Virus record (IMG/VR): IMGVR_UViG_3300028712_000013
Coordinates: 1 to 24,545 of that record
Source: a virus
DNA length: 24,545 nucleotides
Strand: one strand, 5' to 3'
The notes under the pieces were generated by a model, which was not told the origin of the DNA, searched no databases, and worked only from the letters and a program-made list of their open reading frames with translations. Position numbers and translations under genes: made by a program. Shown here one piece after another: positions 4,161-19,456 of the stretch (positions within the stretch are counted from its first letter, which is position 1; each line of letters opens with the position of its first letter).

Positions 4161-4669
4161 GATGCATAGCCTTCTTCGCTGACAACTTTGAAGCCGACGA
4201 ACTCGGTGCCCGCATAAGTTGTACTGACGCGCACGCCGCCGCAAATCCTGTTGTATTGCGTAGATGGATGCGGCAGGTTGCTCGTATAACTGGACATCTC
4301 AACTGTTCTTGTGTTGCCGGTGCCAGTAAGAACAACACCGTGATTCGCCACTGTCGTTTCTGAGAACCACGAGAGCACCATCGCTTGCTTTGCTTCACTC
4401 CATGCTCTCGCCCAACTGCCGATTTTCCACACTAACGGATTGTTGGATGGAATGTCTTTGAAGACCACTGTCAACGTCTCGCGAGCAAGACTACCGGGCG
4501 GACGATTCCAATACAAATCGCCAGCAGGCATCTTCAACCATTGCCCGCAATCAGACACGAGCGTGATGCCTGTGTTTGGCGTGATGACTTCACTAGGCGC
4601 AGTCACAGACACGATACGTGCCGGTGCCCTTCGCATGATGACATCTCGCTCGTTGACTACTACTGCCAT
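4157..4669 (-). CDS. Unknown tail tip protein, 170 aa
   Basis: No family is recognised. The protein is predicted soluble and mostly beta, with few charged clusters; it has two Cys (in SDCGQW and RICGG) and a C-terminal segment ending VGFKVVSEEGYAS. It is coupled on both sides: its ATG overlaps the stop of the giant tip protein by one base (TGATG) and its stop overlaps the next start by four (ATGA). This tight spacing between two tail tip genes suggests it is made in step with them and works in the same structure, perhaps as a receptor-binding or tip-closing subunit. That is inference from position only. Confidence 0.7.
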   Translation of the reverse strand: MAVVVNERDVIMRRAPARIVSVTAPSEVITPNTGITLVSDCGQWLKMPAGDLYWNRPPGSLARETLTVVFKDIPSNNPLVWKIGSWARAWSEAKQAMVLSWFSETTVANHGVVLTGTGNTRTVEMSSYTSNLPHPSTQYNRICGGVRVSTTYAGTEFVGFKVVSEEGYAS

Positions 4670-7600
4670 CAGATTAGCACCCTGATTGTGACCTGGGACG
4701 TTAGCCAGTTTACAGCTACCGACACGACTTGTCCTGTCTTGCCTGCGGACAAATTAAAGCGACGGTGAATCACCTTCATCGCTGCGCCCACTGGCGTGAA
4801 CATCAAGTTCGCAAAGCCTACGAACTCATACACGTGACGCTGTGACGAACGCAACGCAACACGCCGAGTGCACTCATTGTTCGCGCTGTAGCTATCCAAC
4901 AATAAACAATTCTCTTGCTCAACTGCTTCGGCAATTGATACGGTCAACCACTCGCGTCTATACATCTCCTTGTGATCTTCTGGCACACCTTGCGCTGTGT
5001 CTTCTTGTATTGTCCAATTCTTGCAATAGCCCAGGCGAGCACCCGGCACCAATGGCAAACGATCCGCGATGTGCAGCGAGCCCGACACCATGTCCGACTC
5101 GGTGACAACAATTGTCGGAAGAACATTCGACTCTGTGCCGGTGAACGATACCGTGTTAGCGAATATCCACGAGTCAGTGTTGCCTGAGATGGTATCGTAC
5201 TTGCGCATCACAACACGAATCCATCTAGTAGTCGACGCTGTTACCTGTGAGTTGTATATCTGCTTATAGCCTGACAACCCTTGCCCGCCTAACGCTTCTG
5301 CGTTGTTGAATGCCGTTGTCGGCAGGACAGGCACGCCGCCGAGAAGTGTGCCAGCTTCGTTGTACTCACTGAAGTAAATAGCGACGCGACAGCGATGGGC
5401 ACCAGTGTACGCACTAACGACATATTGCTTGCCGGGTTCAACTGGAATAGCTTTGCCAATGTATTCGAAATAGCCTTCTGGATTATTTACGATGCCTTGT
5501 TGATGCGCATAGAACGTGTTTGTGTTTGGCGGAGTCCAGACATCAGAAAGATTGATGCCTACTGTCGCATCAGGGGCAACGCCGCCGCTACCGCCGTTAT
5601 AGGTCCAGCCATCAAGCAGCGCAGAAAAATCGCCGTTGTACTGCAAGTTCACTGGCGTTGAATCGTCGTCCGGCGGCAACTTCAGCTTCACGAGTTGTAC
5701 TTTACCGAGCGCTGTCATCGTCAGGCGTGCACCCACAGACGCGGCAAGTTGCTGACACGCCTCAAGCACTGTCATTCGCTCTGTTGCGTGTAGACCAACC
5801 GGCGCTTTATTCTTTGCGTCGAACACAGTGAAGTTGCGAACATCAATGTCGGCTGCTGTAAAACGATTCGCAGCAATGGTGCCCCATTCAATTAGCAACC
5901 GACGCACCAGAGACGCCACTGTGTTGACGTAGCCACCAGTGAAGCCCGCAGCGGTAGGAGTTTTATCGCCTTGCACGCTGCATGTGACCCTGCCATAAGG
6001 CTGTTTCTGTAATTGAAACGATTGCGGTGCGCCTTGAAGGAATGTAGACGCCACAGGAACACCGTTGTCGCGAACCTCTAACTGTCCCTCTGCTAGACGC
6101 GCATGATAGACATAGATCAAATCCTTGGCGCTATAGATCAACGGCGTGATGTTGTGACATTCGCCGAACGTGATCGGCACGAGTTGGTCTGCGTTAGGTC
6201 CAATGCCGCCGACTTTCGAATCAGTGATCGGCATATCGAGACGATACAGCTTGTCGCGCAGCCGCACGTTCACGGTGTCGCGCATGCTGCTGTCAATGTC
6301 TTCAATCGTGCCGTCGAATATCTGCCTGAAATCACGGCGCGGCCATGTCGCATCACCGACGTATGCCTTGAACTCTTTATAGAGCCACACGCGGTCAAAC
6401 ATCCAATCGAGATCACCTTCGGTGTTGTCTAGCTCGATGTCGCCATACGATTGATTGCCTTGCAAGTCGAGGTCGATGGTCTGCGCGAACTCAAGCCCGC
6501 CGCGCATCAACGGCGCATAGAAGGCAGCATTCGGACCGTCTTCGATTTTCGTCACGAAGCCACGCGACGCGAAGAAGACAGACTCGGTCATGTTCGTGAC
6601 AGGGTCAACACACTTCGTCTCGATCAGCACAACACGAATCGCATGATCGTCGTTCAACCATGCTGCGAACTGTTCATCTGTTACCGCCGACATCGGCGAC
6701 GGCAGCGGGAAGATTATCGGCGGCTTGACCTCATTCGATGCACGATCACTGTTGACATACGGTGCTTGCAGATAGAGCGCCGCAAGTGCTTTCGTTGCGT
6801 AGTCTCGCCGATGATTAGACGCTGTCGCAGTCGTCAGGAATGTAGGCGGCAGCGCAACCGATGCCACCTTGCCAGGAACATACGAATTCGTTGCCGGTGA
6901 TGCAACGGTAAACGCCACAGGCGACGCAGTCGAAAACGTGATGCGCCCTGATTGCGTGTTAGGCGGATCGTGCGCATAGTTCGCTTGCAGCGCAATCGAG
7001 TTCTTACTCGGGAAAGCAGTCGCCGCAAACACAGTCGAACTGTATGCAGTGCTCGTCGCAGTCGAGTTGTCTGCTACGGCATCACCCGGATAACCTGGGC
7101 TCAAGACATACGCAGCCGGTGACGCAACACTCGTGTATGTCCGACCGAGAACATCCGACGTGACCGGCGAGACAAGGTTGTACGCTACCTCTATCGCAAG
7201 CGAAGATCGAGCGAAGCCGCTTGTCGTCGCAGTGCCCGTGAGCGGTGCATACGTGAACGGCAACGCAATCGACGTGCGCGCAAGACTGACTTGTGCATCC
7301 TGCGGAAAGTTAAAGTAAACCGCAGGCACCGCATTGCTCGGAATAATCCGGACAATGCCAGAGAACGAGTCCGGTGCGGTGTGGCTGTATGTTATCGGCG
7401 ACGCCGTCGAGAACACGATGCGGACAACGCCGGACGTTGCCGCTATCGCTGTCTGACTGTACGCAGTAGGTGACGCAGAAGAAAACCGTGCGGACACATC
7501 GCCTGCATCAGAAGGCGCTGTGAAGAAGTTCGTTGCCGTCGCAGTCGATGTGTAGGTGCGTCCTACCGATGCCGTCGCATTCGGTGCGGTGTGCGTGTAG

Positions 7601-10600
7601 TTCGCTTGCAGCGCAACCGAATAAACAGCGAAGCCCGATGTTGCCGCTGTTGCGGCAAGCGGCGTGAATGCAAGCGGTGACGCAACCGAGAAGAGCGCAG
7701 CGGTGTCGCCTGTTGCATTCGGCGACTGTGCAAAGCCCGTCGACGAAGCGACCGATGAATAAACCCGACCGAGCGAAACCGTCGCCGCTATGCCTGTTGT
7801 GCTGTATCCGATCGGATCAGCGCTGCTGTAGTAAGCCCCGGTGTCCCAACCTGGGAAACCGGCTTGCGAGAACGATCCAGGCGACGCGATCCCGACCCTG
7901 CCAATGCTACCGGAGCCCGGAGCGGCCCCGAGAGCGTACAGGCCCGCATTTCCGACGCTCGCCCAGCCGCGCCCGGTGCCCGTCGCCGTCGCCGCGAAAC
8001 TGAAGACGAAAGGCAACGCAGCACTGTTGCCCTGCACGCTCGACACCGCAGCCGCAGCCGCGAGCGCATAGGCCGCAGGCCCCACGTTCCCGGCAGTCGG
8101 CACATAGATGCTCGTCGCGGCAACCGGCGCGAGTGTGTACGTCGTTGCGACTGCGTTGCTGAAGACGGCAACTGACGATGTGGCGGCAACCGGCGCGAGA
8201 GCGTAGGACGCTGCGACTGCGTTGCTCGTGTAGACCCGCGTGATCGAAGACGTTGCCGCTGTCGGCGACATCGGCGCGAACGTGAGCGGCACTGCGTTGC
8301 TGACAGCTTGCACGCTCGACGTTGCCGCAACGGGCGACATCGGCGCATAGACGTTCGTGTTCGCGTTGCTGTAGTCTTGCACGCTCGACGTTGCCGCAAC
8401 CGGCACCATCGGCGCATACGTCATCGGGTCTGCAACCGACGTGATTGCTGCGGCAGCACCGGCAGAAGCAGCGGTGTTGAACCCGTCAATCTGCGCGGCC
8501 TGCAACTTCGTGCCGCCTGCGTTCGTGTATATCCAGAAGACAGGCTGACACGATGCAAAGTTAACCGGCAGCGTGTTCGTCAGCGCAGAGTGACGAACAA
8601 CCCATTGACCGGCAGTCGGCGGATTAGAAGCGCTACTCGGCGCAGACTCGAAGTATGTTGTCCCGGCTTGCTCGCGAATCTGCAACCATCTATAGGTGTC
8701 TTCTTCTGCGAAATAGGAGAAGGTTATATCTGCAACATGGCCCCATGCACCGCCCGTGAATTTAATGATTCGCAGATACCCGGCAGTGTTTTGCGCGAAC
8801 GCTAGCGTGTTATTGCCGGGCGACATAATGCCCAGCGAGAAATCGGCGGTGCTAGGATCACCGACTTGCTTGAATGGTTTAACGAGCTTGAAGAAGACCT
8901 TGCTCTGTCTAAGATCGTAGAACGGCCCAGCAGAAAAGATTTCGGCCTGCGCGCCAGCAATGCCAGTCGAAACATCGAAGACACCGACGCCACCTGTGAA
9001 CGTCACCGTGCCATCGAAGTTACTTGTCGTCCACTTGCCCGTGTCGAGTGGTGCTTCGAAGTTCTCTGTGAGCGTCTCCATCAATGGCGGTGCATACACC
9101 GTCACTGTGCTGATTGCATCGGGCGCGACGCAACTATAAGCAGTCGGATCGGCTGTCGATGTTATCGCTGCCGCGCCTGTGTAGTAGCGCAACTTGTAGG
9201 GCGAGACTAAATCAGAATTTTGCGCATTGATCCAGAAATCTTCGCTGTAGGCTGTCGCCGCTGTTTGAACATTGACAGCCCAAAGCTCGCAGACCAGTAA
9301 GTCACCCGCTTGAACATCAGCAGACGCACCCGAGAATTGTTGATCTAGACGCGGGTCGCCTAAGAGCCGCCACTCAATGCCGTAGTTCGCCGACGCATCG
9401 AGAATGTACGAAACAACCTGACTCGTTGACGGACGCCAGATATACAGAACCGGCCAATTGAATGTATGCGCATTGGCGTTATTCTGTCCCGCAGATACTT
9501 CCCAACTCCACAACTGCGCCGGTATGGTTTGCGCTGCCAGTGGTGGCGTCGAGTACCGACCCAGGAACAGCGATTGCGCAGTAGTGTTCGCCTTCGACAC
9601 AACACCGCGCCACACGGGATTATGAACAATCGTCTCTGGCAACGCACCTTCAGCAGTGCCCCATGCGGTGTGCTGCGTAGCTGTCGGTGTCTTCGGAAGA
9701 TAGGTTGCCTTCGTTCCCGCTGTCGGCGATGAAGTCGGTGTCGCGCTACTAAAGAACAGGACCGAGTTAGGTGCGAAGAGCACCTTATACTGCGAAGCGA
9801 TCTTCGATGTGTTGTCGGTGATCCTGAATGTCTGCGTGTAGATACCGGCGATTGTCGGCGACGTAACTGTCCACGCTTCGACGACAAGTATGTCGCCATC
9901 TTGAATGCCTGCTACCCGTGCACCCGCGAATGTCCGCGTCGCCGTCGCCGCTGTAGCTGGCAACTCAGTGCCCGCATCAGCCGCCGCATTGAAGACATAA
10001 CCGACAACAGTGCTGTTCGAAGGCCGGTACACATACATGACCGGCCATAGAAACGCATTCGCATTGAGATTGCCCTCACCGACAACTACTGCATAGTTCC
10101 AATTCTGCGCCGGTATCGTTTGCGCGGCCAATGGACGCGAAGAAAAGCGCCCGAAGAAGTGCGATTGCACAACGGTGTTCGACACCGTCGCTGTCGTGCG
10201 GTTCGCGATGTTCGCGCCGCCGCCCCAGAACAACGGCAACGATCCTTCGACCGCACTGCCAGATGCGACGTTGTTGTTCCCGACCTTCGGCAGTGACCCT
10301 GCCTTCAGCCCGCCTGATGGAAAGACTAGAGCCTGATCGGCACAAGGAAAGAAATTCGTGATGCCGCTAAAGAACTCTTCGCCGTCTACTGGCGTCGTTG
10401 CATACGTTGCCGGGTCCGCACTGCTTGTGTAGTTGCGCGTCACTGTTGCCGTCGCATCGAACGGCACCATCGGCGCATACGTCATCGGGTCTGCGACGCT
10501 GTTGTATACCTTCACCACGCCTGACGTTGCCGCAGTCGCCGACATCGGCGAGAGTGTCAGCGGCACTGCGTTGCTCGTGTAGTTGCGCGTGACTGTCGAT

Positions 10601-11286
10601 GTCGCTGCGAACGCCGTCATCGGCGAGAACACGAGCGTGTCAGCGGTGCTCGGTGTATTCGGTCCTACCGGACCCGAGTAATAAACTAGCTTGTACGGTG
10701 AAGCAATATAGGTGTTAGATGCCTGGGTCCACAGCCATTGAAGCTGTTGACTGCCGGTCATACCTAAAATGCCAGAAGCCCAGAACTCACAGACAAGTAT
10801 GTCGCCTGCTTGGCACGTTACCGCCGCACCGGCAAATAACTGCCCCGAAACACCTGCCGGTGTGACAGCCCACTCAACACCCATTTGAGCGGACGCGTTG
10901 AGACAGTATCCAACGACCGAATTAGTCGAGGGACGCCATACATAGATAACAGGCCAGTGATATGTATTGCACTGCGTATTCCACTCGCCGCACACAACAT
11001 TTCGATAGTCCCAGCTTTGCGCCGGAATGGTCTGCGCATCAAGAGGCAATGTGCAGAAACGCCCGAGATAGTACGTCTGCCTATTCGCAGTGTCGTTCAG
11101 CATCGGGCATTGCCGCGACTGCTGATTCGTATCGTCCGGAGGTACTTCGGTGAATGACGAATTGACCTCTGACCCAGGCCAAACATTGTTAATGGCAGGC
11201 GAAGCGAGAGGCAGGTACGTAGCCTTCGTCCCGGCTGTCGGTCCGACTGTCGGTACAACGGCAGTGAAGTATAGATTCGAAGGCAC
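4669..11286 (-). CDS. Giant modular tail tip/hub protein, 2205 aa
   Basis: Order of parts: residues 1-208, 299-506 and 507-706 are three copies of a beta-rich module sharing AQTIPAQxW, WPVxYxxRPS, VVxYxxxA and GDxLVxExW. Residues about 210-298 hold a short repeat block. Residues about 738-935 look like a LamG/concanavalin-type lectin domain (NFEAPLDTGKW ... AAQIDGFN). Residues about 940-1520 are about two dozen short Ala/Ser/Thr/Pro repeats. From about 1521 a domain known from phage tail tip proteins begins (IRVVLIET, YAPLMRGGLEF, GDIELDNTEGDLDWMF, RLRDKLYRLDMPI, ITFGECHNITPLI), interrupted at about 1880-2055 by a CBM-like domain. The start codon is GTG in TAGTG, with GGAGAG upstream; module 3 aligns with this N-terminus, supporting it. 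The hub part at the C-terminus and adhesin-like modules at the N-terminus suggest a tip protein with outward arms. Confidence 0.82.
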   Translation of the reverse strand: MPSNLYFTAVVPTVGPTAGTKATYLPLASPAINNVWPGSEVNSSFTEVPPDDTNQQSRQCPMLNDTANRQTYYLGRFCTLPLDAQTIPAQSWDYRNVVCGEWNTQCNTYHWPVIYVWRPSTNSVVGYCLNASAQMGVEWAVTPAGVSGQLFAGAAVTCQAGDILVCEFWASGILGMTGSQQLQWLWTQASNTYIASPYKLVYYSGPVGPNTPSTADTLVFSPMTAFAATSTVTRNYTSNAVPLTLSPMSATAATSGVVKVYNSVADPMTYAPMVPFDATATVTRNYTSSADPATYATTPVDGEEFFSGITNFFPCADQALVFPSGGLKAGSLPKVGNNNVASGSAVEGSLPLFWGGGANIANRTTATVSNTVVQSHFFGRFSSRPLAAQTIPAQNWNYAVVVGEGNLNANAFLWPVMYVYRPSNSTVVGYVFNAAADAGTELPATAATATRTFAGARVAGIQDGDILVVEAWTVTSPTIAGIYTQTFRITDNTSKIASQYKVLFAPNSVLFFSSATPTSSPTAGTKATYLPKTPTATQHTAWGTAEGALPETIVHNPVWRGVVSKANTTAQSLFLGRYSTPPLAAQTIPAQLWSWEVSAGQNNANAHTFNWPVLYIWRPSTSQVVSYILDASANYGIEWRLLGDPRLDQQFSGASADVQAGDLLVCELWAVNVQTAATAYSEDFWINAQNSDLVSPYKLRYYTGAAAITSTADPTAYSCVAPDAISTVTVYAPPLMETLTENFEAPLDTGKWTTSNFDGTVTFTGGVGVFDVSTGIAGAQAEIFSAGPFYDLRQSKVFFKLVKPFKQVGDPSTADFSLGIMSPGNNTLAFAQNTAGYLRIIKFTGGAWGHVADITFSYFAEEDTYRWLQIREQAGTTYFESAPSSASNPPTAGQWVVRHSALTNTLPVNFASCQPVFWIYTNAGGTKLQAAQIDGFNTAASAGAAAAITSVADPMTYAPMVPVAATSSVQDYSNANTNVYAPMSPVAATSSVQAVSNAVPLTFAPMSPTAATSSITRVYTSNAVAASYALAPVAATSSVAVFSNAVATTYTLAPVAATSIYVPTAGNVGPAAYALAAAAAVSSVQGNSAALPFVFSFAATATGTGRGWASVGNAGLYALGAAPGSGSIGRVGIASPGSFSQAGFPGWDTGAYYSSADPIGYSTTGIAATVSLGRVYSSVASSTGFAQSPNATGDTAALFSVASPLAFTPLAATAATSGFAVYSVALQANYTHTAPNATASVGRTYTSTATATNFFTAPSDAGDVSARFSSASPTAYSQTAIAATSGVVRIVFSTASPITYSHTAPDSFSGIVRIIPSNAVPAVYFNFPQDAQVSLARTSIALPFTYAPLTGTATTSGFARSSLAIEVAYNLVSPVTSDVLGRTYTSVASPAAYVLSPGYPGDAVADNSTATSTAYSSTVFAATAFPSKNSIALQANYAHDPPNTQSGRITFSTASPVAFTVASPATNSYVPGKVASVALPPTFLTTATASNHRRDYATKALAALYLQAPYVNSDRASNEVKPPIIFPLPSPMSAVTDEQFAAWLNDDHAIRVVLIETKCVDPVTNMTESVFFASRGFVTKIEDGPNAAFYAPLMRGGLEFAQTIDLDLQGNQSYGDIELDNTEGDLDWMFDRVWLYKEFKAYVGDATWPRRDFRQIFDGTIEDIDSSMRDTVNVRLRDKLYRLDMPITDSKVGGIGPNADQLVPITFGECHNITPLIYSAKDLIYVYHARLAEGQLEVRDNGVPVASTFLQGAPQSFQLQKQPYGRVTCSVQGDKTPTAAGFTGGYVNTVASLVRRLLIEWGTIAANRFTAADIDVRNFTVFDAKNKAPVGLHATERMTVLEACQQLAASVGARLTMTALGKVQLVKLKLPPDDDSTPVNLQYNGDFSALLDGWTYNGGSGGVAPDATVGINLSDVWTPPNTNTFYAHQQGIVNNPEGYFEYIGKAIPVEPGKQYVVSAYTGAHRCRVAIYFSEYNEAGTLLGGVPVLPTTAFNNAEALGGQGLSGYKQIYNSQVTASTTRWIRVVMRKYDTISGNTDSWIFANTVSFTGTESNVLPTIVVTESDMVSGSLHIADRLPLVPGARLGYCKNWTIQEDTAQGVPEDHKEMYRREWLTVSIAEAVEQENCLLLDSYSANNECTRRVALRSSQRHVYEFVGFANLMFTPVGAAMKVIHRRFNLSAGKTGQVVSVAVNWLTSQVTIRVLI
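6742..8469 (-). repeat. Array of short protein repeats (about 20-27 residues each) inside the giant tip protein
   Basis: Residues about 940-1515 are built from variants of one unit, for example SNAVPLTFAPMSPTAATSS, with a [SN]-[ATV]-x-P start, an aromatic residue near the middle and a D/AATSS-V end. Units near 8140-8460 are nearly alike at DNA level; units towards 6800 have diverged strongly. The unit length varies, so the array is imperfect. The low charge and regular aromatic spacing suggest an extended beta stalk or solenoid linking the lectin-like arms to the hub domain. Confidence 0.75.
8401..8433 (-). repeat. 33-bp exact direct repeat, copy A
   Basis: These 33 bases recur exactly at 10462-10494, in the same frame of the same gene, encoding the ADPMTYAPMVP-type repeat unit. 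The flanking bases differ on both sides, so the identity is bounded at 33. It lies in the main short-repeat array while its partner lies in the smaller block between modules 1 and 2. Confidence 0.9.
9169..11286 (-). repeat. Three diverged copies of a roughly 200-residue module
   Basis: Copies lie at about 10663-11286, 9769-10392 and 9169-9768. All share AQTIPAQxW, a GExN or AGQNN segment, WPVxYxxRPS, a VVxYxxxAxxxxG(V/T/I)E segment and GDxLVxExW. Copies 1 and 3 also share PTAGTKATYLP at the start, and all end in an (S/Q)YK-type segment. Copy 1 has extra Cys residues that the others lack. The internal similarity is at protein level; DNA has diverged. I do not know the family; the pattern suggests a jelly-roll-like beta domain. 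Confidence 0.8.
10462..10494 (-). repeat. 33-bp exact direct repeat, copy B
   Basis: This is the partner of the copy at 8401-8433. It sits in the short-repeat block at residues about 210-298 of the giant tip protein. Exact identity over 2 kb of separation suggests recent exchange or duplication between the two repeat blocks. Confidence 0.9.
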
Positions 11287-11981: not shown

Positions 11982-14900
11982 TTAGGCCAATACAGGCCGA
12001 GAACGTGATTGATAGGTTCGCTGACGAGCGGCCCGGATAGTCGCTTCGCTTTGCACTTGTGCCGACTGTTGCGCCGCTGTGAACGTCGCACCGATTGTGT
12101 TGCCTGCATCTTGCCGATTCTCTTTGCGCAATGCCGCAACCTCTTGACGCAGTGCACGCAACTCCCCTGAGAAGTCAGGCAGACCACGAATGAACGCCGA
12201 TTCATTTTGAGGCAAGACCATTTCGTCTTGATGAAGCAACGCAGGATAGTTGTTGAATGGGACTCGCGACAAGCCTTCGGCGTGCGGATAACCCAGCGTG
12301 TATAGATCGTGACGTGCCTCTAAGAACAAACGCAAAGCGGTGTCGACACTCATCAAAGTTTCGTTAATGGAAATGAGGTGATCGACTTGACGATTCAACG
12401 CGAGCAATTGCATGTCGGCAACGTCGCTCAAGTATTTAGTCGAACCCGCTGCAAGTTCCATCTCAGATGTGACCTTGTTGAACAACTCATCGTAACCTTC
12501 GCCCGAACTGTAGAACTCCCTGCCGCCTTGCAGCAAGGCTCGCGCAGCCGCTTGCATGCGCTCAACGTCTTCCGCCTTGTAGCCACCAGCAGCCGCCGCA
12601 CTGCGTGCAGCACCATACTGATCGCGAAGTTCCCCCATGCGCTCACCCGGTGTGAGCGTGCTCAATGCTTCGTCAACCTTCAGCGACTTGTTGAAGTCCA
12701 AGAACGATTGCGTCGCGTCACGCATCGCGTCACGCGTCCCAATCAATGTATCCCGTTGACGCTCATAAGCATCGCGCAAGTTATCCGTCGCTGTCTCAAG
12801 CACATTCGACAAGCGTTCGTATTTCTCCGCAGCCGTTTCAGTTTTAGCCGCCACCTCTTCTATCAACGGGTTGAGTTCTGCGAATGCTGCATTGACCTTC
12901 ATCAACGCCGCATAGCGCATTCTGTCGCCTTCTACTGCGAGATCAAGACCGTCGACCAACTTGCGAAACGACGCTCTGTCGTAAGTGCGCAAGATCGCTT
13001 CACTCCAACCTGTCCACCCGGAGCCCGCTTCATTAAGTTGCGCGGCAATCTGTTGAAACTTCATCGACTGTTGTTCTGCGGGCGATAAGTAATTCGCGAC
13101 ATAGCTCGTGAGATTAGCACCGAAATTCTCGATGCCACCGGAAAGCTCGCCGAGACGAATAGCCGCTTCGAGCGACATATTCGCGAACTGTTTCATGACG
13201 CCGCCGAGTCCCTGCACTTGCTTCCAATACACATTAACAGCGGCAAGCTGTTCAACAGAAGCGAGCTTCATTTCATCGGTCATGCCTTCAGTCATCTTGT
13301 CGAAGTACGCAAGCAACTGTGCATCCATGCCAGAATTGCGAATTGCATCAACCATCAGAAACGCAGCACCCTTCGCTATCTCCGCAGCGAGTTCTTCTTC
13401 GCTACGTCCGACATTCTTGTTCGTGTAGCTACCGCCAAGCGAACTAATCAATTGAACCATCGACGCTGCGTCGCCACGCGGGTCTGTCGATATACCAACG
13501 CCGAATTGAACATCTTGCCGCGCAGCACCGAGCATCTGCGCCATCTTCTTATAGTTCGCGTTCAAATCCTTCACGGCATTTGCGGCACCCGAGTCCATCT
13601 CATTACCGAACTTGCCGATCAAAGTATCAGACGAATAACCGGCAGAGCCCTCCATCTTTGGCCCGCCACCTTTGCCGAACTTCTTGTAGAGCGCATAGGC
13701 CGCAATCGCAGCCAAGGCAACCCACCCTACCACCGGGATAGCAGCAAGGCCCGCACCGGCCCCCATGCCTATCGCGTTCGCCACCGGCAGGCCAGCGGCC
13801 ATTGCGCCCGTGTACGTCGTTGCCGCAGCCGTGCCGACACCGCCGAACAGCGCCGATCCGGCTGCTGATCCTGCCATGCCACCGATACCGCCAAATGCGC
13901 CACCGCCGCCGCCTGCCGCACCGCCGCTTGCCGCACCACCCATGAAGCTCGCACCGAAACCTTGCGCCGCGCCCATGATCGTCGGACGCAGGATCATCGT
14001 CTTGAATAAATTCTTTATGAGGTCCGCTGCTTTCAACGAGCCCTTCATCAATTGATCGGTAAGCGATTGCCCGATCTGTTCCCAGGCTTGTTCGAATGCC
14101 TTCGCTGTTTCATCGGCATTCTTCTTCGCTGCATCGACAACTTCGATGCCCTTCATCGCCGCGATGATTCTTTTCTGATTCGCAATCTGCCGCTCATAGA
14201 ACTCGCGCAAGACCGGGTCAGACATATTGACGACGCGCAAATCCTCAAGCCGTGCCAACGTCGTCGCTGCGATCTCACTCTTCAACTTGCCGCGATTCGC
14301 GAGTTCTGTTTCTGCCGCAAGCGCTGCTTCATCAGACGCCTTCAAGACAGTGGCTCGATCCTTGTCCGCTGCTTCGAACGCTCTCTTCTCTGCGTCAGCA
14401 TAATCTTCTGCCGCCTGCGCTTGATCCTTGATGGCTTGCGTGTAGAACGGCTGTTGCGAGATCAAGCCATCGACAATCTTTCGATACTGATCTTCGGTGT
14501 AGTTGCGCTTCTTACTTTCGGCGTTGATAACCTTCATCTGTTCAATGAAGTTGTCGTTGTATCCAACAGCCTTCAAGGTGCCGCCGCCGACGATCTTGTC
14601 GAAGTCATCGGCTTGCTTTTCCGCTGCCTTGAGTGCGTCTTCAGCGGCCTTCTTCGCAATCTTCGCGAGTTCTTCTGCCTTCTTTTTGGCGTCCGCTATT
14701 TCTTTGTCGGTTTGCCCTTGCCGTATTTTTTCTTGCGTTTCGTAGGCACCTTCGCCGCCCGCTGCCATTGCCGCAGCTTCTCTCGCCGCCTTGGACATCA
14801 TGTCGAGTTTCTTTTGAAAACTTCCCTTGAAGCCTTGCGTGTTGCCGAAAGAAATCCCTGCGAAGTCTTCGGACCAAATCGACTTTATCTTCTCGCCTAA

Positions 14901-15923
14901 ATCCTCTACCGTCTTGTATGCACCAGAGAAGTCCATCGTACCTAAGTCGATGATGACTTTAATCAACGACACTACTGCGTTGATGACACTTTCGACAACC
15001 CTGTAGATCAATTGAAATGCAGTGATCGCACCGGCAAGACCGTGTCCGACAGCTTCAGAAAAACTGTGCGCACCTTGATTCGCGCCAAGTGCATCAGCCG
15101 CATCACCCATGCCGAACATAGATGCGGTAGTCTCTTTGATAACGAGCTTGAACGCTTCTGTTGCAGGCACAGTGCCAACAAGAATAGCTTGAATGTATTG
15201 CCGCGACTTCGATGTGAATTCAGCGTTAGCATCATTCAATCCATCGACAGATTGAATCATCTCATTATTGAGCCGCGTAGCGAATGCCGTTTCATCGGCA
15301 AGCACTTTGATTGCCTTGCCTAGTTCACCGGCACCTCGACCCGCTATGGCTTGCAAGATTTCCGTCTTCTCGACGCCATCAGCATACTTGCCCATCGCCA
15401 CACCGAGCGCTGCAACACGCTCTGCCGGGTCCAGCTTTATAAAGTCTTCATAGTTGATGTTGATACGCGCTAACGCTCTCGCAGCCTTGTCGCCTTCTTC
15501 ATCAGTCGACTTGAGTATGCGCGTCATCGCATTCATGTGACCTGCCATGCCTTGCATGGATATACCGGCCACATCTGCCGCAGTCTGTAGCTTCGCGATG
15601 TTGACCGCTGAAGCGCCCGTCATGTCGGCAAGGTCTGCGTAATCGCCTGCTTCCGCCATCAATGCATAGAGTTGCTTGACGGCATCAATTGCCATCTGCA
15701 CACCCTTCTGAATAGCATCAGCAAAGAGAGCACCCTTGACCGCAGCCGCAGTCATTTGATCTTCGAAACTCTTTACATCACTCGCGCCCTTCTTCGCGCC
15801 TTTGCCGACACCTTCGGCGGCATCTTCTGCCCTGCCTGCGGCACGCGTGAAGTTGTCCAGCGATTGCCGACCTTCATCGACCTGTCGTGAGTCGATGCCG
15901 ATGCCGAGTGTTGTTATGTCCAT
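11982..15923 (-). CDS. Tail tape measure protein
   Basis: At 1313 residues this is the tape measure, the coiled protein that sets tail length and is held in the tube until DNA injection. The N-terminus (GIDSRQVDEGRQSLDNFTRAA) is typical. Other features are a long Ala/Lys/Glu coiled coil at about residues 380-450, a Gly/Ala-rich stretch at about 658-708 followed by a hydrophobic stretch at about 708-748 (possible membrane-crossing part), further coiled coils, and a C-terminal GLSRVPFNNYPALLHQDEMVLPQ-type motif, which tape measures often carry. No lytic or peptidase motif is seen. The ATG lies three bases after the GT stop, with GAAGGG inside the end of GT as ribosome site. At about 0.15 nm per residue the tail would be near 200 nm. 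Confidence 0.95.
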   Translation of the reverse strand: MDITTLGIGIDSRQVDEGRQSLDNFTRAAGRAEDAAEGVGKGAKKGASDVKSFEDQMTAAAVKGALFADAIQKGVQMAIDAVKQLYALMAEAGDYADLADMTGASAVNIAKLQTAADVAGISMQGMAGHMNAMTRILKSTDEEGDKAARALARININYEDFIKLDPAERVAALGVAMGKYADGVEKTEILQAIAGRGAGELGKAIKVLADETAFATRLNNEMIQSVDGLNDANAEFTSKSRQYIQAILVGTVPATEAFKLVIKETTASMFGMGDAADALGANQGAHSFSEAVGHGLAGAITAFQLIYRVVESVINAVVSLIKVIIDLGTMDFSGAYKTVEDLGEKIKSIWSEDFAGISFGNTQGFKGSFQKKLDMMSKAAREAAAMAAGGEGAYETQEKIRQGQTDKEIADAKKKAEELAKIAKKAAEDALKAAEKQADDFDKIVGGGTLKAVGYNDNFIEQMKVINAESKKRNYTEDQYRKIVDGLISQQPFYTQAIKDQAQAAEDYADAEKRAFEAADKDRATVLKASDEAALAAETELANRGKLKSEIAATTLARLEDLRVVNMSDPVLREFYERQIANQKRIIAAMKGIEVVDAAKKNADETAKAFEQAWEQIGQSLTDQLMKGSLKAADLIKNLFKTMILRPTIMGAAQGFGASFMGGAASGGAAGGGGGAFGGIGGMAGSAAGSALFGGVGTAAATTYTGAMAAGLPVANAIGMGAGAGLAAIPVVGWVALAAIAAYALYKKFGKGGGPKMEGSAGYSSDTLIGKFGNEMDSGAANAVKDLNANYKKMAQMLGAARQDVQFGVGISTDPRGDAASMVQLISSLGGSYTNKNVGRSEEELAAEIAKGAAFLMVDAIRNSGMDAQLLAYFDKMTEGMTDEMKLASVEQLAAVNVYWKQVQGLGGVMKQFANMSLEAAIRLGELSGGIENFGANLTSYVANYLSPAEQQSMKFQQIAAQLNEAGSGWTGWSEAILRTYDRASFRKLVDGLDLAVEGDRMRYAALMKVNAAFAELNPLIEEVAAKTETAAEKYERLSNVLETATDNLRDAYERQRDTLIGTRDAMRDATQSFLDFNKSLKVDEALSTLTPGERMGELRDQYGAARSAAAAGGYKAEDVERMQAAARALLQGGREFYSSGEGYDELFNKVTSEMELAAGSTKYLSDVADMQLLALNRQVDHLISINETLMSVDTALRLFLEARHDLYTLGYPHAEGLSRVPFNNYPALLHQDEMVLPQNESAFIRGLPDFSGELRALRQEVAALRKENRQDAGNTIGATFTAAQQSAQVQSEATIRAARQRTYQSRSRPVLA

Positions 15924-15926
15924 GAC

Positions 15927-16720
15927 TTACCCTTCGACATCGGCGTCGTCATCGCGCTCTTGCGGCTTGTCATCATCAGACGCTTCGCGCAAAGTCTTGT
16001 CCATGCGAACGAGTAGATCAAATTCCCATCGTGTAGGAACGATCTGCCGATTGCGAAAGAACGAGCACAACTCTGTCTCTGTGATAGCCGCAAGCCCGAA
16101 GCCCGGTGTGCGCGTTGAACTGAGACGAGAAAACCACTCCCAGAGATAATCAGTCCCAGGAGGCAACTCATGGCTTCGTAGTTCAACAAGTTCGTCAGGA
16201 GCAACACCCGTCATCCTTTCAACAACAGCAAGCGTCTCATACAGCGCTATGCCGTCTTTACCTCTTTTGCCACCGCGAGCACTGGCTTCGACGAACTCGC
16301 AGATTTTGTCGGCGAGCCCTTCAAAAAAGCCGCTTCATCCTCCAACGCGGCAAGGATGCGGTCTTTCCAACTTGGCTTCACCGCGAGTATCTGCGTCACG
16401 CGTTCGCGCACGAACGGCGCAGCCTGACCGTTGACAGTGAAGCCAAACCAACCGACGACAACAGCAGCGGCAACCTCGAATTCATTTTGACGCAACGTGG
16501 CATCGAGTTGCTCTGCACCTTCTTCGCTCTTCAAGTCGAAGCGTGTGCGCTTCACCGCCTGCCGACGAATGGCCTTCTGCCGCTGCCCCGAGATCGTGCG
16601 TTGATACTCGTCCGAGTCCTTGCCCACGATGATGAAGCCGTCTGTCGGTTCGCCATCTTCATCCCAGGCAATAGCAACACGCTGCGTGCCCGGTTCTTCC
16701 TGTACTTGATCTAGTTCCAT
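15927..16720 (-). CDS. Tail assembly chaperone GT (made by -1 frameshift)
   Basis: The 264-residue fusion consists of residues 1-133 of G followed by 131 residues in the -1 frame. The -1 frame is open from the slip site at 16322-16328 through to the stop at 15927; I translated the join and found no stop. The T part contains WEWFSRLSSTRTPGFGL and FRNRQIVPTRWEFDLLVRMDKTLRE, a pattern seen in tail chaperone C-terminal parts, and ends in an acidic DDDKPQERDDDADVEG tail. In lambda and many siphophages GT links the tape measure to tube subunits during assembly and is absent from the virion. An ATG at 16214 could start the T part alone, but the open junction upstream argues for the fusion. Confidence 0.85.
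16247..16720 (-). CDS. Tail assembly chaperone G
   Basis: The 157-residue protein lies just before the tape measure and is the unshifted product of the G/GT pair. It is charged and mostly helical after residue 50 (GQRQKAIRRQAVKRTRFDL, LDATLRQNEFEVAAAVVVGWFGF), with a helical RERVTQIL to LEDEAAFL segment before the slip site at residue 133. G coats the tape measure during tail assembly. Its ATG directly follows the stop of the GH12 gene (TAAATG), so it is probably translated by coupling. Confidence 0.85.
   Translation of the reverse strand: MELDQVQEEPGTQRVAIAWDEDGEPTDGFIIVGKDSDEYQRTISGQRQKAIRRQAVKRTRFDLKSEEGAEQLDATLRQNEFEVAAAVVVGWFGFTVNGQAAPFVRERVTQILAVKPSWKDRILAALEDEAAFLKGSPTKSASSSKPVLAVAKEVKTA
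16322..16328 (-). promoter_or_regulatory. -1 ribosomal frameshift site T TTT TTG
   Basis: On the minus strand the G codons read GCT TTT TTG AAG, giving the heptamer T TTT TTG in the X XXY YYZ form. A one-base slip back puts the ribosome in the frame of the T extension, which stays open to 15927. The site is 24 codons before the G stop, the usual place for tail chaperone genes. I could not confirm a downstream pseudoknot or stem. Confidence 0.8.
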
Positions 16721-18205
16721 TTACTTTCCTGTGACGTTGAAGTCGTAGATAGTTAAGTCGCCGTTGCCGTACACCATCTCAACGCCAAGTTGAACATTGG
16801 TGCAGTATTCAGTGCCGCGCACGAATGGCTTGCCATCTTTGGCCTTGCGCGTCTGCATGTGCGCGAAGAACTTCGAGAAGTCCAAGTGAATATTGCCGTC
16901 CGCGCCCTTCGGATGATCGTCGCCGTCGTGTTGAAAGATAATGAACTTCCAACCCGTGCGCTGTCCGCCTTTCTCTTCGTTCGCATACTTACCGGAGAGC
17001 GTTCCATTCATGAATGAATAGCCTTCGCCCGCGAAGTACACGTGATAGACAACACCGTCGATAGTGGTGTCGTGGCTATACCAACCGGGATTGCGCCCGT
17101 TTGGATGCCGCCCATAGGTGCCCCAATTGCCCACGGGTATCATGATCTCGTGCGTGATCGACGTATTCGGGAAACCGTGCACTTGATCGGGTGTCTCTTG
17201 AAGCCAGATGTCAAAGGACAGATGCCCTCTGCCTGTTGCAGTGGTCTTCTTCCACTTCAAGTCGGCGACGATTGAACCGTCAGGCATGCCCAGGCGCTTA
17301 GGCAGATGATGCCCAGGTGCACAACTCGAAGGCACGCGTCGAATGACCGAGCCGCCCTTCGGTTGCCACTCGCGCACGACATCTGTCGGCGCACCGGCAG
17401 GCGGATTCGGCACCGTGACGCCATCAGCCGCACGCACAGCAACGACCCAGCCGGGATATTGATCCGGACCTTGCAGCCCAGGTGGCGGACCGTAGATCGC
17501 GCAGGGATAGCCCTTGACTTCACCGTATGCCGGATTGTCATTGACCTTCGCGCCCGATTGATCGAACTCGGGCCACTTCCACTTGATGCGGAAAGCGATA
17601 GCGCCCGATGAAGAAGGCGTCAGCGCTCGCTCGACTTCTTGCGTGTACTGATGCGACGCGCCGCCTTCGGATAATCCACGAGAGCCCCAGCGGTTATCGT
17701 AAATCCAGAACTTGCCGACTTCGAGCATGTCGCCGGGATGTCGAGCCATGTTGGCAATGTCAGGCACGCCTTGTGATGGTGGCGGTGCCGGTGAAGGTCC
17801 AGGCGCAGGAGATGGCGACGGTGCTGCCGCACGTGGATCGGATGAATTCTCCCATTGATTCACGTTCCACCTCCACCAACCGCCCGCCTCATTCGTCTGA
17901 TAGATCGCGCCGCCGAAATACAGCAACGTCTTCACGTTCGCCGATATGGTTGCCGTGCCATTGCGTTGAATGACACCGTCGAGAACCGTCCACTTGTGCC
18001 CGAAGCCGTCGACCAATAGCACATTGGGCGGTATCGTTGCGCCATTCGGACTCTCAGACGGGACCGCAGGCGGTGCCGGTGTCGGTGATGGTGCAGGAGT
18101 GGGCGACGGCGCAGGCGACGGCGCAGGCCCAGGCGACGCAGAAGCGGTGAACGTACCTGTGAACGTCCCGACGAACGTACCTGTGAGCTTGTCGCCTTCG
18201 GCCAT
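16721..18205 (-). CDS. Tail-associated glycoside hydrolase family 12-like protein
   Basis: The 494-residue protein starts with a GTFxGTFTGTFTAS repeat, a Pro/Ala/Ser linker (residues about 23-50), a small Trp-rich domain at about 72-128 (WTVLDGVIQRNG ... GGWWRWN), and a second Pro-rich linker. From about residue 185 to the end it resembles GH12 endoglucanases/xyloglucanases: KGYPCAIYG, LSFDIWLQETP, HEIMIPVGNWGTYG and RGTEYC ... DLTIYDFNV. The Glu in HEIMI (353) and in GTEY (466) fit the nucleophile and acid/base of the family, so activity on a beta-glucan is plausible. No signal peptide is seen; release would be by lysis or on the virion. It sits between the tube and chaperone genes, with AGGAG before its ATG. 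Substrate and virion attachment are unproven. Confidence 0.8.
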   Translation of the reverse strand: MAEGDKLTGTFVGTFTGTFTASASPGPAPSPAPSPTPAPSPTPAPPAVPSESPNGATIPPNVLLVDGFGHKWTVLDGVIQRNGTATISANVKTLLYFGGAIYQTNEAGGWWRWNVNQWENSSDPRAAAPSPSPAPGPSPAPPPSQGVPDIANMARHPGDMLEVGKFWIYDNRWGSRGLSEGGASHQYTQEVERALTPSSSGAIAFRIKWKWPEFDQSGAKVNDNPAYGEVKGYPCAIYGPPPGLQGPDQYPGWVVAVRAADGVTVPNPPAGAPTDVVREWQPKGGSVIRRVPSSCAPGHHLPKRLGMPDGSIVADLKWKKTTATGRGHLSFDIWLQETPDQVHGFPNTSITHEIMIPVGNWGTYGRHPNGRNPGWYSHDTTIDGVVYHVYFAGEGYSFMNGTLSGKYANEEKGGQRTGWKFIIFQHDGDDHPKGADGNIHLDFSKFFAHMQTRKAKDGKPFVRGTEYCTNVQLGVEMVYGNGDLTIYDFNVTGK

Positions 18206-18229
18206 AGCTGTTCTCCTGTGTGTTTGAAA

Positions 18230-19456
18230 TTACGAAGGAACAACCGCGCTGTCTTGAAGCTCGATTGTGGTTGCGTTCGCCACGAGTGTCGGTCCGCCGA
18301 CATCGTTATACAGCGCGACGAAGTTATACGTGCGCTTGAGCCCTGTTTCAACGTCATCAGGCGTGCTCGAATTGAGCTTTACCTTGTGCAACGCGAACGT
18401 GTTGAACTCCGCTGTGTCTGCGTTGCTTGCCGCAAGTGCCGACACGATGCTCGTCTCGACTTCATCGTCGTATAGATCGGGAATTTCTGCGCTGTCATAG
18501 TAAGCCGTGAAGCTACCGCTCGCCATCAGCTTACCCGTGAACACGTCGGGCCGGATGTTGTCGCCGACGACAGGGTCAGCAACCGCGCCGCGAGCGTCGA
18601 GATTCAACGAGAGATCAGTCACCGTACCGCGTCGTGTGCCGTTCACGATCAACGCACCGCCTGCGGCAACCATGACGCCGGTTGTCGTTTCATTCACCGG
18701 AGTGGTGAAGTATCGCGTCACATCCTTCGATTGATCCAGGCCCAGGAATGACCAATCAAGACCGGCGTTGCCCGACCCAGGCAGACGCACGTTCACCGAT
18801 GCGGCCTTGCAGTCCTGATTGCGTTGACTGCGCGGCACTTCGGGAAACCATTCTTCAGCGGTGTAGTAGATGTCGGTGTGCCCCGTCTCAGGCACAAACG
18901 TGATGCCACCTGGGAACATGAACGAGCTTGCCGGGACCGCTGTTTCAGTGACAGGCGCTTTGCGATTGAGCGGTATCACTGTGAGCGTCGTTGCTGTCGG
19001 CACACCGACGATCAGCATGTTCCTGCGCGAGCCCGCAGCAAGGCCCGCAATCGGACGAATGACGCGCCCGATCTTCGCACCGTCTGTGAGCCACGAGCCC
19101 GTCGTGCGTGTGATGGTGTACGTCGGGCCGGTGCCCGAAACACTCGCCGTTATGCCGGTGATGTTCGCAATCGCGGTGAACTCGCGCATCAGCAACGCAG
19201 CGAAGAAGTCCGCGTATGTGCCAGGAGAAAACAGCGCAGACAGCGAGCCGTTGACTGTCACTGCGCCATGACGCGACGACATCAATTGCTTGCGTGATGT
19301 TTGCTCGGACTCGGTTGTGTACGACTCTTTCGAGCGGTCGAATGTCGACGTGTCGCGACGTATGATCTGCCCACCTGTGCCAGCGACAGCGAGTGTGCCC
19401 TTCGCAGTTTGCCGCTTCATGATTAAGAGCTTATTTGCACCCTTTGCGATTGCCAT
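18230..19456 (-). CDS. Major tail tube protein
   Basis: The 408-residue protein fits the phage tail tube family (Phage_tube-type) by its start (MAIAKGANKLLIMKRQTAKGT), the RDTSTFDRSKESYTTESEQTSRKQ segment, the KLMASGSFTAYYDSAEIPDLYDDE segment and its place between the tail terminator and chaperone genes. Subunits stack as hexamer rings to make the tube through which DNA passes. It is longer than many tube proteins; a Thr/Val-rich stretch at residues about 95-180 may be an extra surface domain. A Shine-Dalgarno (TGAGGA) lies before the ATG at 19456. Confidence 0.88.
   Translation of the reverse strand: MAIAKGANKLLIMKRQTAKGTLAVAGTGGQIIRRDTSTFDRSKESYTTESEQTSRKQLMSSRHGAVTVNGSLSALFSPGTYADFFAALLMREFTAIANITGITASVSGTGPTYTITRTTGSWLTDGAKIGRVIRPIAGLAAGSRRNMLIVGVPTATTLTVIPLNRKAPVTETAVPASSFMFPGGITFVPETGHTDIYYTAEEWFPEVPRSQRNQDCKAASVNVRLPGSGNAGLDWSFLGLDQSKDVTRYFTTPVNETTTGVMVAAGGALIVNGTRRGTVTDLSLNLDARGAVADPVVGDNIRPDVFTGKLMASGSFTAYYDSAEIPDLYDDEVETSIVSALAASNADTAEFNTFALHKVKLNSSTPDDVETGLKRTYNFVALYNDVGGPTLVANATTIELQDSAVVPS

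Follow-up and report, generated by a model that had tools for sequence, protein, structure and literature searches.

Why a virus should carry a protein resembling a cellulase between the genes for its tail tube and its tail assembly chaperones is the question raised by this locus. GH12, a family of cellulose-cutting enzymes, is known mainly from bacteria and fungi, and tail-associated depolymerases are generally beta-helix tailspikes. The gene studied here, P0001, lies in a virus record of 24,545 bases, referred to below as the window, and the original prediction, made from the sequence alone, had described its product as a GH12 cellulase-like enzyme. Taken as a whole, the locus is best explained, with moderate probability in our judgement, by a beta-glucan depolymerase with a divergent GH12-like domain, which was acquired from a host and placed in the tail operon. 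Loci with relatives are designated by L and a number.

Gene and domain organization

The open reading frame was found exactly where it had been predicted, and its strand, which was then left unstated, is the minus strand (Table 1). All recognised genes of the window are on this strand, including scaffold (phrog_206), major capsid protein (phrog_212), tail tube, P0001, chaperones, tape measure protein and more large ORFs. The matches to PF18906 and phrog_290 on one side and to phrog_313 and PF23812 on the other agree with the predicted placement between tail tube and tail chaperone genes. Read from the N-terminus, MAEGDKLTGTFVGTFTGTFTA is followed by a Pro-rich linker, by a Trp-rich module whose end is DPR, by another Pro-rich linker and by the domain of 349 residues, and the predicted layout, i.e., a GTF repeat (TGTFVGTFTGTFT), Pro-rich linkers, a Trp-rich stretch and the C-terminal motifs DIWLQETP, HEIMI and GTEY, was recovered. 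The PHROG search gave phrog_15511, a family without function, at 23.1 bits over the repeat, linker and Trp-rich part, and this match was given no weight.

Table 1. Coordinates of P0001, its parts and its neighbours in the window
Feature	Position	Strand	Remark
GH12-like tail-operon gene P0001	16721..18205	minus	494 aa ORF
Shine-Dalgarno-like AGGAG	18213..18217	minus	7 nt before ATG of P0001
GTF repeat, residues 8-20	18146..18184	minus	candidate anchor
Pro-rich linker 1, residues 22-50	18056..18142	minus	
Trp-rich module, residues 51-125	17831..18055	minus	candidate carbohydrate-binding module
Pro-rich linker 2, residues 126-145	17771..17830	minus	
GH12-like catalytic domain (predicted), residues 146-494	16724..17770	minus	profiles and model
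E353, nucleophile equivalent (THEIMIP)	17147..17149	minus	Glu in 37/37
E476, acid/base equivalent (LGVEMVYGNGD), in QLGVEMVYGNGDL	16778..16780	minus	Glu in 37/37
E466 (GTEY), second Glu of the original prediction	16808..16810	minus	not the acid/base equivalent
Tail tube gene, upstream	18230..19456	minus	PF18906 51.6 bits, phrog_290
Tail assembly chaperone, downstream	16247..16720	minus	phrog_313 35.4 bits
Second tail assembly chaperone (Phage_TAC_18)	15927..16214	minus	PF23812 43.8 bits
Tape measure protein	11982..15923	minus	phrog_25966 50.1 bits

P0001 starts 24 nt past the stop of the tail tube gene and is in the same frame, only 8 codons apart. Stop-codon readthrough from the tail tube into P0001 was considered as a conserved device and rejected, because only 7 of the 12 members of this slot examined are in frame with the tail tube (chance expectation 4), the two genes are separated by anything between 11 and 25 nt, and a GGAG is present at about the same place before the start in all 12.

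Relationship to GH12 enzymes

The Pfam GH12 profile PF01670 matched the window protein with 23.3 bits over the whole chain and 24.9 bits for the domain alone (E 7.9e-5), which is under its gathering score of 27 bits, a cut-off that is a detection threshold and not a biological feature. Because of this score, relatives were collected by five scans of viral contigs (5, 13, 15, 33 and 33 loci, with overlap between the lists and many duplicate loci) and by two scans of genome contigs, which confirmed none and 11 loci, respectively, with exact short-peptide seeds that miss divergent relatives. Four of the 12 other family proteins scanned whole passed the PF01670 cut-off, i.e., those of phage loci L034 (29.2 bits) and L045 (29.1 bits) and of Ramlibacter loci L054 (31.9 bits) and L061 (35.8 bits), and the other eight (L031, L029, L030, L032, L053, L063, L172 and L176) gave no match to it. 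When eight close domains were scanned against Pfam, only that of the window was matched.

In a comparison of profile with profile, 17 phage domains aligned by hhalign with seven GH12 proteins, all outside the 17, at E 1.6e-30 over 218 columns, and the eight closest domains aligned with the same seven at E 1.5e-16. Two of the seven, L070 and L071, were first found by the family profile itself (E 8.4e-19 and 1.8e-17) and have PF01670 scores of 67.4 and 80.7 bits. A profile of the seven proteins found 40 distinct solved sequences with a best E of 2.2e-65, and CelB of S. lividans and the xyloglucanase of B. licheniformis were among the best of them. The relationship to GH12 enzymes is therefore significant by hhalign and profile searches, and the profile match whose absence was to count against the original prediction is present.

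Other searches returned little. A phmmer search of the PDB with the single sequence found no homologue, its 12 rows (E 0.037 to 0.97) being mostly chance matches to Pro-rich stretches; tblastn of the single sequence against 50,697 phage records found none; the NCBIfam scan gave nothing for P0001; and the profile of eight close domains matched in the PDB only Cel12A of R. marinus, at E 0.23. Three Streptomyces records at E 0.1 in a tblastn search of plasmids were taken as chance.

Judged by its sequence, the window domain belongs to a divergent GH12-like subfamily. It is filed as GH12-like rather than as formal CAZy GH12, because a retaining action on beta-1,4-glucan, mixed-linkage glucan or xyloglucan is a matter for an assay. 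The same subfamily includes the Ramlibacter and Polaromonas enzymes of L054-L064, which are 32-46% identical to the window domain and have the (T/S)HEIMIP and (L/F)GVE motifs and the shared insertions, and these are the nearest cellular relatives found.

Predicted fold and catalytic residues

The AlphaFold model of the domain built from 30 sequences had a mean pLDDT of 93.1 and a pTM of 0.92 and is the basis of the fold comparisons; a model from 2 sequences gave a pLDDT of 34.3. The best Foldseek match in the PDB was the B. licheniformis GH12 xyloglucanase 2jem (E 2.5e-14), and VIA-align superposed the model on 2jen with Z 25.7 and an rmsd of 2.2 over 231 of 233 residues. GH12 entries (Z 19.3-25.7) filled the top 43 of the 50 rows in the structure comparison, and xylanases (GH11) followed at 18.1 and less. 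The predicted structure is thus a GH12 beta-jelly-roll, the fold on which the original prediction had staked its claim. In the library of viral predicted structures no match was found at E 0.001 or less, and other viral GH12s are still possible. Altogether, the protein is very probably a divergent GH12-like glucanase by fold and likely activity.

The domain shares the jelly-roll fold and the YPxIxxG region with the xyloglucanase 2jem/2jen and with the endoglucanases CelB (S. lividans) and Cel12A (Rhodothermus marinus). In contrast to these GH12 enzymes, the window protein is phage-encoded and has N-terminal GTF and Trp-rich modules. It differs from 2jen in being only 26% identical by structural alignment, in having EIMIP, and in a domain about 115 residues longer than the 2jen chain.

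GH12 enzymes use a retaining mechanism with two Glu residues, as stated in the accessible part of PMC7303141. The carboxylates of such a retaining pair are about 5.5 Angstrom apart (PMC3047435). An alignment of 37 sequences was examined, which takes in three ordinary GH12s (L049, L070 and L071), one partial sequence (L041) and cellular homologues. Glu was present at the positions of E353 and E476 in every row, and these two residues align with Glu-120 and Glu-203 of CelB through the alignment of seven GH12 proteins, so that the two catalytic Glu are in positions equivalent to those of CelB. In the CelB row, the Glu of TEIMIW is residue 120 and that of QAGFEPW is 203; the title of Zechel et al. 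1998, as given in the references of PMC5327597, names residue 120 as the nucleophile. Glu-203 serves as the acid/base. The original prediction had named residues 353 and 466 as the catalytic pair. E353 stands, but E466 does not, since position 466 holds Glu in 33 of the 37 rows (Asp in 2, Lys in 1 and Leu in 1) and the GTEY of E466 lies ten residues ahead of the homologous acid/base site, which is that of E476. This GTEY resembles the GTEPF motif of GH12. The rows of 2jem and 2jen have Gln and Ala at the nucleophile position, which we assume to be engineered variants. The Trp following the nucleophile in the GH12s aligned here (E-x-M-x-W) is replaced by Pro or Ile in the family, which reads EIMIP in the window, EIMII in L092 and L172 and EIMVI in L176.

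The slot behind the tail tube gene

The scan with the tail-tube profile gave 437 relatives, and among the best 80 of the 437, which were kept, 19 loci had a tube identity of 85% or more. L086 was left out because its contig ends with the tube. In all 18 assessable loci, which represent about 12 distinct sequences, a GH12-like gene directly follows the tube; the contig of L004 ends within this gene. Two of these loci show irregular frames: in L016 (3322-4873) the frame is broken in the middle of the domain, and in L009 (5542-7035) the GTF part and the remainder are in different frames, by assembly error or real decay in both cases. Sixty loci had tubes at 37-52% identity, and in the 51 examined the family profile matched none of the first three ORFs of at least 60 aa behind the tube. 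The first ORF there was 120-175 aa long, the size of a chaperone (size from the table only), in 44 of the 51. In the phages Caulobacter DMCA, Limnohabitans DC31 and Curvibacter P26059A, which have related tubes, no gene of the size of P0001 is annotated at this place. Present in 18 of 18 close loci and in none of the 51 distant ones examined, with no gene of its size annotated in the three named phages, the gene is concluded to be an accessory insertion in a single soil clade.

Another GH12-like subtype occupies this slot in three loci, L092, L172 and L176, behind the same N-terminal module. L172 and L015 are 87.2% identical in the tube, 90.4% in the chaperone, 76.0% in the N-terminal module and 43.4% in the catalytic part; the window and L015 are 86.7, 87.9, 63.6 and 66.8% identical in the same four parts. 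The pair L172 and L015 is a clear case of exchange of the catalytic head.

In the IQ-TREE tree of 36 domains (8 of 33 inner branches open; L049 and L064 long), the 12 sequences from the slot do not form a single clade. The slot label needs 2 changes, both forced by starred branches, and 1 change was found in 0% of 200 bootstrap trees. Support is weak (89/31) for Ramlibacter L059 as the exact sister of the second subtype, but the enclosing ten-row clade has 100/98. Phage sequences are intermingled with those of Ramlibacter and Polaromonas, whose label needs 7 changes with at least 4 forced, and L034, L036 and L037 group with Polaromonas L056 (100/100). Because the tree was drawn with a midpoint root, the direction of transfer can only be inferred from it. 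The dN/dS values of the 7 pairs computed were 0.041, 0.085, 0.174, 0.098, 0.095, 0.227 and 0.123, which are rough since dS is near 1 in three of the pairs; the range of 0.04-0.23 indicates purifying selection.

Other settings of the domain

The GH12-like domain was also found in other arrangements. The protein of L045 joins the domain to a baseplate hub (TIGR02218 194.8 bits against 80.5; PF09931 152.1 bits) and a beta-helix, so that for this one relative the match to a curated hub family supports a fusion with a tail protein. The single chain of 1989 aa in L031 (63-6032) combines a beta-helix, a GH12-like domain (by the family alignment), a GH18-like region (by eye) and GH8 (PF01270, 52.7 bits). 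The 910-aa protein of L029 has fibre-like repeats N-terminally (by eye) and a weak match to the head-decoration family phrog_2647 (25.7 bits), and its gene sits between T7-type scaffold and capsid genes. A CBM35 precedes the domain in L032, and L040 has a lipoprotein-type start. In L034 (4521-7361), the gene lies between an endolysin (phrog_90) and a holin (PF23987, 52.9 bits) on a contig with an integrase-like ORF, a lysis-cassette setting that favours release at lysis for this particular phage.

Two further loci differ in kind. L053 (1761-5189) has a GH18-like domain (23 bits, below the cut-off) seemingly inserted within the GH12-like domain, and L049 (5659-6474), in a viral contig of 87.6 kb, encodes an ordinary GH12 (54.7 bits) with EIMIW and a lipoprotein-type start.

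Cellular relatives and host

The 11 genome loci with the family domain come from 6 genomes, 10 of them being Ramlibacter and 1 Polaromonas. A match was present in 12 of 60 genomes of the genus of L054 (two weak) and in 5 of 299 genomes drawn from its family (3 weak, 2 of these 3 being ordinary GH12 by Pfam). The Ramlibacter enzymes differ from the phage protein in their hydrophobic secretion-type N-terminus (6 examined), and a CBM5/12 in L054 and a CBM4/9 in L063. In a simple hydropathy scan of the first 60 residues, the best 12-residue value was 0.84, 0.76 and 0.64 in three slot proteins versus 1.95-2.58 in the six Ramlibacter proteins; these low values mean that the three slot proteins examined have no signal-peptide-like stretch.

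In the 10 Ramlibacter and Polaromonas loci that were read, no tail genes were recognised nearby, and no exopolysaccharide clusters were recognised beside the Ramlibacter genes (judged by eye in 10 of 11 loci, on the first 110 residues of each ORF of at least 150 aa). The tail tube was found in 0 of 60 Ramlibacter genomes, a prophage check that shows little because it had no positive control. In the literature, no Ramlibacter phage was named in titles among the matches listed. From the cellular relatives, a host among Comamonadaceae, such as a Ramlibacter-like bacterium, is likely. Two Ramlibacter loci have further glucanase genes: in L061 (6986-9556, minus; Ramlibacter ginsenosidimutans), a GH5 cellulase (PF00150, 86.7 bits) adjoins the GH12-like gene, and L054 (4041-7485; Ramlibacter aurantiacus) has two tandem GH12-like paralogues, the second with (AP)n linkers and the CBM5/12.

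Relatives of the Trp-rich module occur on Paraburkholderia and Caballeronia replicons (5 plasmid records). In Caballeronia L181, a glycosyl-hydrolase catalytic core (20.8 bits, cut-off 21) follows the relative, and two tyrosine kinases of the polysaccharide-synthesis type are among the neighbours, as is a beta-glucosidase; the core of L180 scores 21.2 bits, and there the module is partly upstream of the annotated start. These contexts suggest that the Trp-rich module may be linked to polysaccharides.

Proposed function

Phage-encoded cellulases of other families are known. According to the accessible text of PMC9544554, Erwinia amylovora phage S6 (Schitoviridae) encodes the cellulases gp094 (GH48) and gp095 (GH5), the activity of gp095 was measured, infection by S6 requires bacterial cellulose, and the N-terminal domains of the cellulases were suggested to attach to the particle, with the site on the particle left open. 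The window protein is like gp094 and gp095 in being a phage-encoded beta-1,4-glucanase, its activity being predicted and that of gp095 measured, and unlike them in its GH12-like catalytic family. The original prediction knew of no established phage tail role for such enzymes, which holds for GH12 in the named phage records and the papers searched, but phage GH5 and GH48 cellulases had been described, as the accessible text of PMC9544554 states. Our literature search, which covered few subscription papers, found no GH12 case in phages and no paper on a cellulase domain in a phage tail. The apparent GH12 text matches in the accessible parts of PMC11361711 and PMC9602057 were GH127. Soil viruses have been reported with CAZymes of many families in the permafrost and mangrove papers (PMC6786970, PMC6460857; as far as accessible), in whose main texts the word GH12 occurs 0 times.

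For P0001, a tail-borne glucanase role is plausible. The gene would derive from secreted glucanases of Comamonadaceae-like bacteria and would have entered the tail operon as an accessory gene. The protein may be anchored to the virion, probably to the tail, by its N-terminal GTF repeat, the Trp-rich module may bind polysaccharide, and the Pro-rich linkers may give reach. The GH12-like domain would then cleave a beta-1,4-linked (or mixed-linkage) glucan of the host capsule or biofilm by a retaining two-Glu mechanism, with E353 as the putative nucleophile and E476 as the putative acid/base, and the cleavage would let the tail reach the cell surface. That the protein is borne on the virion seems to us distinctly probable from the position of the gene and the lack of a signal-peptide-like stretch in the slot proteins examined, and the fusions in relatives add support; that it acts on a beta-glucan of the host coat is rated somewhat above even. 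As in other tail-associated depolymerases, a polysaccharide-active domain is here tied to tail proteins, and in L031 and L045 the GH12-like domain is accompanied by a beta-helix; unlike in tailspikes, the window has a jelly-roll glucanase as a separate gene between tail tube and chaperone.

The enzyme might instead work outside the virion, being made late, released at lysis and clearing the matrix for the spread of progeny. The lysis-cassette gene of L034 fits this, and lysis would be a possible exit for the three slot proteins without a signal-peptide-like stretch. However, the gene of the window and its near relatives lies between tail tube and chaperone and has an N-terminal module absent from L034, and the domain of L045 is fused to a baseplate hub, so we consider release at lysis unlikely for P0001. 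The same missing stretch bears on the idea of an auxiliary metabolic gene with which the infected host feeds on plant or microbial glucans, because the three proteins would not meet the polymer before lysis. Soil viral contigs with many CAZyme genes have been reported (PMC6460857, accessible part), and the Ramlibacter relatives are of the secreted type, with CBM5/12 in L054 and CBM4/9 in L063, but the position of P0001 within the tail operon is also against a metabolic gene, which we regard as very improbable. A catalytically dead GH12 fold serving as a polysaccharide-binding receptor protein would agree with EIMIP, EIMII or EIMVI in place of E-x-M-x-W and with the long insertions; since all 37 sequences, the cellular homologues among them, retain both catalytic Glu, there is little chance that this holds.

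With a beta-glucan depolymerase of the tail as the preferred reading, a wider picture can be tentatively drawn, which we rate as possible but less likely than not: soil phages may keep a dedicated accessory slot for a three-part arm, composed of a GTF anchor, a Trp-rich binder and an exchangeable GH12-like head, and the heads may be replaced from the secreted glucanases of the hosts, tracking changes of the glucan coat. In unrelated phages, host-derived heads of this kind would also have been added to baseplate hubs, to fibre-like proteins and to lysis cassettes. The locus would add a GH12-like family to the phage enzymes that open glucan coats, it suggests that the hosts may be Comamonadaceae such as Ramlibacter, and the family may provide candidate enzymes against biofilm glucans.

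Other large ORFs of the window

The GH18 motif DGxDxDxE includes the catalytic Glu. A 676-aa protein of the window (861-2891, minus), with weak cadherin-like and tandem-95-like matches, has by eye a GH18-like region, GVDGIDIQFYD, which is without the catalytic Glu, and similar stretches are present in L031 and L053. An ORF of 2205 aa (4669-11286, minus) contains, by eye, many short repeats like ASPxxYxxxAPxATSxV.
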